Below, one piece after another: positions 46,201 through 64,000 of a stretch of DNA of 64,000 nt. The stretch lies in the NCBI GenBank assembly GCA_025642075.2, contig JAODUO010000864.1:239350-303349 (forward strand). Direction: 5' to 3'. Below the pieces are notes generated by a model. That model ran no database searches, was not told the DNA's origin, and worked only from the letters and a program-made list of their open reading frames with translations. Source of the DNA: Ridgeia piscesae. Taxonomy: Eukaryota > Annelida > Polychaeta > Sabellida > Siboglinidae. Every line of letters starts with the position of its first letter. The stretch's first letter is position 1. The position numbers and the translations under genes were made by a program.

Positions 46201-49200
46201 AGTGACCACTGGCCGTCCAGTGACCACTGGCCGTCCAGTGACCACTGGCCGTCCAGTGACCACTGGCCGTCCAGTGACCACTGGCCGTCCAGTGACCACT
46301 GGCCGTCCAGTGACCACTGGCCGTCCAGTGACCACTGGCCGTCCAGTGACCACTGGCCGTCCAGTGACCACTGGCCGTCCAGTGACCACTGGCCGTCCAG
46401 TGACCACTGGCTGTCCAACTAATTGTTTTCAGAAGATGGAGGAGGAATTAATTTTGAGTAAATTATCTATTCTCAAGATTAAATCTTTATAACTGACCAG
46501 TCTAGAGTGGACAAGGTTTGTCTTGACCATGTGTCTTGACCACATCACAGCAGGTCTATGTAACTGACCAATCCATTCTGGACAATGCATTGTCTTTTTC
46601 GTGTCACAACAGATCTTCATAACTGACCAGTTTTGTCTGAACAAAGTTTGTTGTGGTCAAGACAAATACTGATCCTTTTAATTCTTGTTGTTGCCAGTTG
46701 TGCCAGGGCTAATTGTGATACGGGCCCTAGACTTTGATCTATTGGCTATCCTAGGACCATTTGACACTCTCTAAATTCAAGTCTTTTCAGTTATATTTGT
46801 ACTTGTTGTGGCCAGTTGTCTGTCAGTCTCAGAGACCGGTGGGTGGGTGTCTGGCTGTCCCTGCCACATTGTCACGCAGGTCTCACATGTGAATGGATAC
46901 GTAGAGTGTAATGAATGTAGACTGGAGTGTCACAAGTGTAGACTGGGGTGTCATGAGTGTAGATGGGAGTGTCATGAGTGTAGACGGGAGTGTCATCAGG
47001 GAAGACTGGATTGCATGAGTGTAGACTGGAGTGTCATGAGTGTAGACTGGCGTGCATGAGTGTAGACTGGAGGGTCTTGAGTGTAGACTGGAGTGAATGA
47101 GTGTAGACTGGAGTGTCATGAGTGTAGACTGGAGTGACACAAATGTAGATTGGAGTGTCATGAGTGAAGACAGGAGTGTCATAAGTGAAGACTGGAATTC
47201 ATGAGTGTAGACTGGAGTGTCATAGATGAAGACTGGAGTGTCATGAGTGTAGACTGGAATGTCATGACTGTAGACTAGAGTGTCACAAGTGTAGACTGGA
47301 GTGTCACGAGTGTAAACATGAGTGTCACGAGTATAGACTGGAGTGTCGCAGGTGTAAACCTGAGTGTCACGAGTGTAAACCTGTGTGTCATGAGTGTAAA
47401 CCTAAGTGTCACGCGTGTAGACTGGAGTGTTGTGAGTGTATACTTGAGTGTCATGACTCAAGAATGTAGACCTGAGTGTCCTGAGTGTAGACTGGAGTGT
47501 CTGTGCAGGACCAGCGACTGAGGGACCAGGTGTCAATGGGATGTCAGGACACGTCCCTTGAGGACAAGATGCTCACCATTGTTCACAGCACAGACACCGT
47601 CAATGTCTCCTACACCAACTTTGCTGCCAACTCTCGTGAGGTTGCTCGAGTAAGTATCACAGCCAATTCTTGTGAGGTCGCTCGAGTAAGTATCACAGCC
47701 AACTCTCGTGAGGTCGCTCGAGTAAGTATCACAGCCAACTCTTGTGTGGTCGCTCGAGTAAGTATCACAGCCAACTCTCGTGAGGTCGCTCGAGTAAGTA
47801 TCACAGCCAACTCTCGTGAGGTCGCTCGAGTAAGTATCACAGCCAACTCTCGTGAGATCGCTCGAGTAAGTATCACAGCCAACTCTCGTGAGGTCGCTCG
47901 AGTAAGCATCACAGCCAACTCTCGTGAGGTCGCTCGAGTAACTGTCACAGCCAATCTCGTGAGGTCGCTCGAGTAACTATCACAGCCAACTCTCGTGAGG
48001 TCGCTCGAGTAAGTATCACAGCCAACTCTCGTGAGGTCGCTCGTGTAACTGTCACAGCCAAGTCTCGTGAGGTCGCTCGAGTAACTATCACAGCCAACTC
48101 TCGTGAGATCGCTTGAGTAAATGTCACAGCCAACTCTTGTGAGATCGTTTGAGTAAATGTCACAGCCAACTCTCGTGAGACCATTTGAGTAAATGTCACA
48201 GCCAACTCTCGTGAGATTGTTTGAGTAAATGTCACAGCCAACTCTCATGAGATCGTTTGAGTAAATGTCACAGCCAACTCTCGTGAGATCGCTTGAGTAA
48301 ATGTCACAGCCAACTCTCGTGAGATCGTTTGAGTAAATGTCACAGCCAAGTCTCATGAGATCGTTTGAGTAAATGTCACAGCCAACTCTCGTGAGATCGC
48401 TTGAGTAAATGTCACAGCCAACTCTCGTGAGATCGCTTGAGTAAATGTCACAGCCAACTCTCGTGAGATCGTTTGAGTAAATGTCACAGCCAATCTCTCG
48501 TGAGGTCGCTTGAGTAAGTATCACAGCCAACAGTCACCTCCATGTATATGTCTTTTTACAGTTGTCCATTTCTTTGTCCTCTTCCCTGTCTATTTGTCCA
48601 CTTATTTTTCTTTGCCCAGTTCTTTGTCCACCTCCACTTCTGCAGCATCCTTCTTGTCCATCCCCATTTCATTTTTTCCACTTTGTACAGTTCTTTGGCC
48701 ACTTGTCTACTTTGTGTCCACTTCTTTGTCCACTTCTTTGGCCACTTCTCTACCTTGTGTCCACTTCTTTGTCCACTTTGGCCACTTTTCTACATTGTGT
48801 CCACTTCTTTGTCCACTTTGGCCACTTTTCTACCTTGTGTCCACTTCTTAGCCACATGTCTACTTTGTGTCCACTTCCTTGTCCACTTCTTTGGTCCCTT
48901 GTCTACTTTGTGTCCACTTCCTTGTCCACTTCTTTCACATGTCTACTTTGTGTCCACTTCCTTGTCCACTTCTTTGGTCCCTTGTCTACTTTGTGTCCAC
49001 TTCTTTGTCCACTTCTTTGGCCACATGTCTACTTTATGTCCACTTCCATGTCCACTTCTTTGGCCACTTGTCTACCTTTTGTCCACTTCTTTGGCCACTT
49101 CTCTACTTTGTGTCCACTTCCTTGTCCACTTCTTTGGCCACTTGTCTACTTTGTGTCCACTTCCTTGTCCACTTCTTTGGCCACTTCTCTACTTTGTGTC

Positions 49201-63420: not shown

Positions 63421-64000
63421 GTAGGCTTCACAATGTGCACCGAGATACTCTTTAAGGTAGGCTTCACCATGTGCACCGAGATACTCTTTAAGGTAGGCTT
63501 CACCATGTGCACCGAGATACTCTTTAAGGTAGGCTTCACCATGTGCACCAAGATACTCTTTAAGGTAGGCTTCACCATGTGCACTGAGATACTCTTTAAG
63601 GTAGGCTTCACCATATGCACTGAGATACTCTTTAAGGTAGGCTTCACCATGTGCACCAAGATACTCTTTAAGGTAGACTTCACATGTGCACCGAGATACT
63701 CTTTAAGGTAGGCTTCACCATGTGCACCAAGATACTCTTTAAGGTAGGCTTCACATGTGCACCGAGATACTCTTTAAGGTAGGTTTCACCATGTGCACCG
63801 AGATACTCTTTAAGGTAGGCTTCACCATATGCACCGAGATACTCTTTAAGGTAGGCTTCACCATGTGCACCGAGATACTCTTTAAGGTAGGCTTCACCAT
63901 GTGCACCGAGATACTCTTTAAGGTAGGCTTCACCATGTGCACCGAGATACTCTTTAAGGTAGGCTTCACCATGTGCACCGAGATACTCTTTAAGGTAGGC
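63385..64000 (+). repeat. 36-bp array carrying an exon end and its splice donor
   Basis: The unit is GGCTTCACCATGTGCACC, GAGATACTCTTTAAG, then GTA, about 17 copies to the window end and beyond. The first copy is the end of the X-domain exon ([11 protein letters not shown]). Most copies keep the frame. Copies at about 63679 and 63749 lack one base (TTCACATG). Confidence 0.96.

Follow-up and report, generated by a model that had tools for sequence, protein, structure and literature searches.

Why should four of the eight splice donors lying between 47 and 64 kb in a PLC-beta gene of the annelid Ridgeia piscesae be buried in tandem arrays, and are donors in this genome special in this respect? 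We analysed a window of 64,000 bases (the whole stretch of DNA under study), which ends at 64000 because contig C864 of the assembly (628 Mb, 4875 contigs) ends there, inside the last of these arrays. Pfam assigned PH, EF-hand and X domains to the window gene, and no match to Rfam was found at gathering scores. PLC-beta exon borders were placed by tblastn with the Capitella, Lottia and Pinctada PLC-beta proteins, the exact joins being set by eye (Table 1). Among the best 120 of 4759 matches, the top PLC-beta relatives were those of Capitella (69% over 58% of the query) and Dimorphilus (68% over 57%), and the Branchiostoma protein stood at rank 25 (70% over 42%). In a tree of 16 proteins, in which nemerteans, brachiopods and phoronids are not named, the PLC-beta was sister to Capitella (96/94) within the annelids (99/95), with Branchiostoma placed among the vertebrates. 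Amphioxus was rejected as the host of this DNA, since the closest PLC-beta proteins among these best matches are annelid and the tree agrees.

Table 1. PLC-beta exons, donors and donor-spanning arrays in the window and on contig C2104. Window donors are given by their first intron base.
Feature	Position	Strand	Donor	Array over donor	Basis and remarks
PLC-beta exon, upstream	16219..16296	+	16297	no	tblastn, array test
PLC-beta exon, ends ...ANSREVAR/gtaagtatc	47509..47649	+	47650	yes	tblastn; join to next exon by eye
Array 1, 36-bp unit, 25 copies (36 bp x 25.2), 24 exon bases per unit	47626..48531	+	47650	yes	TRF
PLC-beta exon	52855..52988	+	52989	no	tblastn, array test
PLC-beta exon	55854..55938	+	55939	no	tblastn, array test
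PLC-beta exon, ends ...IDKIFYD(L)/gtgagtatg	56287..56387	+	56388	yes	tblastn, array test
Array 2, 57-bp unit, 14 copies (57 bp x 14.0), 42 exon bases per unit	56346..57141	+	56388	yes	TRF
PLC-beta exon	57684..57850	+	57851	no	tblastn, array test
18-bp microexon (DPEVPK)	58760..58777	+	58778	no	by eye against Capitella protein
PLC-beta exon, ends ...HNTYLS(G)/gtgagtcat	61934..62080	+	62081	yes	tblastn, array test
Array 3, 16-18-bp unit, 37 copies (18 bp x 36.8), 9 exon bases per unit	62072..62701	+	62081	yes	TRF
PLC-beta exon (X domain), ends ...MCTEILFK/gtaggc	63263..63420	+	63421	yes	tblastn, Pfam
Array 4, 36-bp unit, at least 17 copies (36 bp x 17.1), 33 exon bases per unit	63388..64000	+	63421	yes	TRF; runs off the end of C864
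Array, 73 bp			C2104-rc 11832	yes	
Degenerate array, 21 bp			C2104-rc 1120	yes	
23-bp array			C2104-rc 1929	starts exactly at donor	left out of counts

TRF found all four arrays where the original prediction had placed them and with the units it gave, and the homologue-placed borders confirmed that they span four of the eight donors in 47–64 kb; the predicted ranges (10 to 45 coding bases, 13 to 38 copies) were adjusted to exon parts of 9 to 42 bases and 14 to 37 copies, array 4 being longer than the window shows. The units differ in sequence, so that the four arrays probably arose independently, as had been proposed. The GT dinucleotide was retained in 25/25, 14/14, 35/37 and 17/17 copies of arrays 1–4, and the full GTRAGT in 9/25, 10/14 and 27/37 copies of arrays 1–3, the donor of array 4 itself being GTAGGC. 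Decay was measured in five arrays, where donor hexamers had lost identity no faster than the remainder of the unit, and hence we make no claim of selection against spare donors. Identity fell with distance from the exon in seven of nine arrays, a trend significant in only two of them, and we therefore make no claim on the polarity of array growth; mostly, the exon copy matched the array consensus at least as well as the other copies did. The window also holds arrays with units of 20–86 bp, up to 3.6 kb long, that have no recognised exon at their edge (7014–10657, 37323–39366, 39776–42080 and 48681–52126).

The gene apparently continues on contig C2104 (50,427 bases), which terminates in the 36-bp unit of array 4 from the other side and carries the remaining downstream PLC-beta exons plus further donor arrays. 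Both contigs ending in one 36-bp array suggests that the assembly probably broke there, and C2104 was also the sole other match when a second allele of array 4 was searched for, with none found. The end of C2104 is noisy (L014, L013); a frame slip of one base in the exon that follows is probably an assembly error. Exons for approximately aa 1–33, 60–81 and 646–672 were not found with the homologues used; those for aa 60–81 and 646–672 are missing between their neighbours (C2104-rc 5692–6763 and window 16297–47509). Several arrays on C2104 lie close to acceptors: at C2104-rc 5900–6760 (L013), degenerate 39-bp units that resemble acceptors (pyrimidine tract, CAG and a few exon-like bases) abut the acceptor at 6763 of the exon SARHDRRFDPF, a possible acceptor counterpart that was read by eye and left uncounted, and at the acceptors C2104-rc 1844, 2633, 8419 and 22619, as at loci L029 and L030, arrays stop 4–16 bases short of the exon.

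Donors were then compared with other sequence in a sample of 74 donors and 75 acceptors from PLC-beta and myosin genes, of which PLC-beta contributed 24 and 25; the last PLC-beta exon found was omitted as a donor, its end being unclear. For the myosins, 50 of 75 exon matches were used, leaving out two on C3590, which share profile span and score with one on C272, and 23 others. These 50 donors include some from close C411 paralogues and some whose predicted splice sites are weak, and their positions were chosen by a vertebrate-derived scoring table. The C3590 matches (2886–5380) show one myosin profile segment in both orientations with equal score, which also equals that of C272:279540; the contig is perhaps palindromic or an assembly artefact. 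Other myosin exon matches lie in very long open frames of up to 1946 aa (C898:164846, C1015:204642–215193, C971 and C411), and on C1015 one myosin segment was matched twice, 466 bases apart, possibly reflecting in-frame arrays over exons.

Where an array extends into the intron, a donor can sit only in its first unit, which makes the share of sequence occupied by first units a fair yardstick; these made up about 1.9% of the PLC-beta region and 1.0% of the sequence at 40 myosin loci. By TRF, 5 of the 24 PLC-beta donors were array-spanned (0.46 expected, P = 8e-5; the four that gave rise to the test are among them), in agreement with the claim that the window's arrays exceed chance placement, and so were 4 of the 50 myosin donors, on other contigs and with units of 25, 20, 53 and 17 bp. 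Border-spanning arrays with unrelated units are thus present in several genes, PLC-beta and those of the four myosin donors. Over the whole sample TRF gave 9 spanned donors of 74 (0.97 expected, P = 9e-7) and 1 acceptor of 75; with the window's nine donors removed, 5 of 65 remained (0.8 expected, P = 0.0014). A test independent of TRF, in which an 18-base junction word counted when it recurred two or more times on the intron side, within 600 bases, scored 10 of 74 donors (1.56 expected, P = 6e-6), six of them among the 24 in PLC-beta, and 1 of 75 acceptors (1.24 expected). Outside the window it scored 6 of 65 donors (1.30 expected, P = 0.002), an excess that amounts to six events, and 1 of 66 acceptors. 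Fisher tests of donors vs acceptors on these counts gave P = 0.005 for the whole sample and P = 0.06 outside the window. A third yardstick compared left array edges (score of at least 80, at least three copies) with their density at +50 to +599: 14 of the 33 left edges counted from −50 to +599 fell within −50 to +49 of donors, and 9 donors were seen vs 1.8 expected (P = 1e-4), or 5 of 65 vs 1.6 outside the window (P = 0.023). Right array edges clustered within 50 bases before acceptors (7 in 3.75 kb vs a background of about 0.33 per kb), and one lay on the exon side. Within the sampled genes, arrays are therefore likely to span donor borders at a higher rate than intron sequence or acceptors, a bias that is unproven genome-wide.

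We consider it most probable, at roughly 60%, that the arrays are minisatellites that arose by tandem duplication across a donor, were tolerated through continued use of the first donor and then grew, and that in the sample this border was hit more often than intron sequence and acceptors. A stretch running from the end of the exon through the donor into the intron would have been duplicated in tandem, perhaps between short direct repeats flanking the donor. Array 1 ends with the partial copy GCCAAC, which is the unit start in the exon, and array 2 ends with CTTGTGTG, the start of its own unit; these repeated ends, 6 to 8 bases long and read by eye in two arrays, fit a first duplication of this type. 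The duplicate may then have expanded by slippage or unequal exchange. Such a duplication would be tolerated since the exon is still defined by the copy adjoining it, all later copies being intronic. Use of this exon-proximal donor is suggested by the protein it would give, which lacks inserted repeats as the homologues do; counting against it, distal donors could also keep the frame in arrays with 36- and 57-bp units.

A rival account, which we consider rather unlikely, is that minisatellites are born uniformly, those within exons are purged and those that span donors survive, which would make the window a chance cluster and donors nothing out of the ordinary. It draws on the abundance of arrays (39% of the window and 25% of C2104), which was counted against a donor-specific bias, but tolerance can lift donors to the intron rate and never above it, and the junction-word counts, with or without the window, exceed that rate. 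Whole-genome word counts, which served as a proxy, fall on both sides. Three copies of a donor-like word at short spacing (triplets) were counted and compared with the reversed word. For CAGGTRAGT there were 2866 triplets vs 2033 reversed and 17,507 single words vs 11,547, so that the word was arrayed about as often as its control (16.4% vs 17.6%), as uniform birth would have it. Its first 100 listed matches, up to C58:451,800, nevertheless formed 19 loci, vs 4 loci of the reversed word on that stretch, one of which is itself a donor-like array; a single array on C55 gives 64 of the 100 listed reversed-word matches. Scaled to words outside arrays, the difference in loci was 3.1-fold (P = 0.022). 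This reading was revised post hoc: an initial estimate of about 27 loci per 100 matches had indicated no excess, and the few giant arrays in the control led to the recount of 19 loci. AAGGTRAGT gave 1046 triplets vs 429 reversed and 14,587 single words vs 13,376 (7.2% vs 3.2%), which speaks against uniform birth, but its array loci numbered 10 vs 8 among the matches listed (C1–C116), which speaks for it. For both words together, 24 vs 11 loci were counted on the first stretch, with P = 0.22 when the CAGGTRAGT scaling was applied to both and P = 0.02 at even odds; loci were tallied manually, with matches less than about 2 kb apart treated as one locus (and those on C78, over 4 kb, likewise as one). 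The acceptor word TTTTCAGGT, with 17 triplets vs 2 reversed, in 3 loci, was too rare to use. The proxy is thus mixed, and the idea that the locus or the genome seeds arrays at donors is favoured by the donors outside the window and left in balance by the word counts. We advance only tentatively the broader proposal that this annelid genome has a mutational process by which minisatellites form at exon/donor borders, though not at acceptor borders, several-fold more often than in other intron sequence, with arrays at about one donor in ten, which would make the amphioxus arrays described below the second case, from a distant phylum. The donor excess could conceivably stem from R-loops, from some feature of the border sequence or from arrays persisting longer when anchored in a conserved exon.

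It is very improbable that the arrays serve alternative splicing, with distal donors adding peptide repeats to the protein. In favour of such a function, five of the ten units have a length divisible by three (counting array 3 as 18), and beyond the first donor the reading frame of array 1 remains open over 324 bases and that of array 4 over 288. Five in ten is, however, probably near the one third expected by chance, and no clear pressure for in-frame units is therefore visible; moreover, in arrays 2 and 3 a stop follows the first donor after 1 and 17 bases, repeats from array 4 would enter the X domain, and homologues have no insertion there. Equally hard to credit is the creation of these introns by tandem duplication of exon pieces with AG/GT proto-splice sites, a model proposed for amphioxus globins (PMC3087553) and for human genes with minisatellites at exon-intron boundaries (PMC2812944). 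Such duplication needs both intron ends to derive from the unit, but the acceptors are not array copies: the 20-base acceptor words of the four introns match the arrays at a best identity of 9 to 11, equal to that of shuffled words, and the three acceptors within the window sit 543 to 4324 bases past the array. Least probable of all are collapsed or stuttered contigs as the source of the arrays, for which the end of C864 in array 4, the noisy start of C2104-rc and the frame slip in its next exon could speak, but arrays on many contigs differ in unit, age and divergence, some being degenerate, and two contigs ending in one array would point to an array too long to assemble and not to an invented one.

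The original prediction knew of no described system of this kind, but related cases have been published. In amphioxus, Adh3 and globin genes carry "mirages", minisatellite-like tandem repeats that span exon/intron borders at several loci (PMC3087553; the Adh3 mirages are credited there to Canestro 2002 NAR), with units of 10–72 bp in Adh3 and about 150–160 bp in the globins. Many of these repeats keep their splice signals, and RT-PCR suggested regular splicing (PMC3087553). In the lancelet PGBD5 gene, tandem repeats of 60 and 108 bp lie over the 5' and 3' splice sites, are thought to be splicing-neutral and were grouped with similar duplications in Adh and troponin C (PMC3902484). In human segmental-duplication genes, variable minisatellites at exon-intron boundaries alter gene structure, with units of about 30 bp, four repeats on average and half lying in coding sequence (PMC2812944). 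The window arrays fit the description of mirages, a known oddity in a new animal group: as in amphioxus, the unit spans the exon/intron border and several genes carry unrelated units. They differ from the amphioxus cases, as far as described in these sources, in that the host is an annelid by its PLC-beta tree and hence of a different phylum, in that copies number up to 37, vs the 6 and 3 of the BflGb6 haplotypes (PMC3087553), and in that donors exceed acceptors (10 vs 1), whereas both borders were shown in amphioxus. The 108-bp repeat of PGBD5 is an imperfect triplication, in contrast to the long arrays of the window, and the human case was discussed as a source of new introns, whereas the present arrays begin at existing donors. 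The proto-splice-site model of intron gain through tandem duplication (Rogers; Zhuo 2007; Gao and Lynch, as cited in PMC3087553) likewise involves duplication around AG/GT, but the copies found here lie inside existing introns, none of which is shown to be new. Among the open-access PMC papers listed, and as judged from titles and the first parts of abstracts, none was recognised as reporting donor-spanning arrays in annelids.

Mirages at 4 of the 50 sampled myosin donors and 6 of the 24 PLC-beta donors suggest a recurrent route of intron growth, along which spare donors accumulate. Were the bias towards donors to hold across the whole genome, it would implicate splicing signals or co-transcriptional events in setting where tandem duplications begin.
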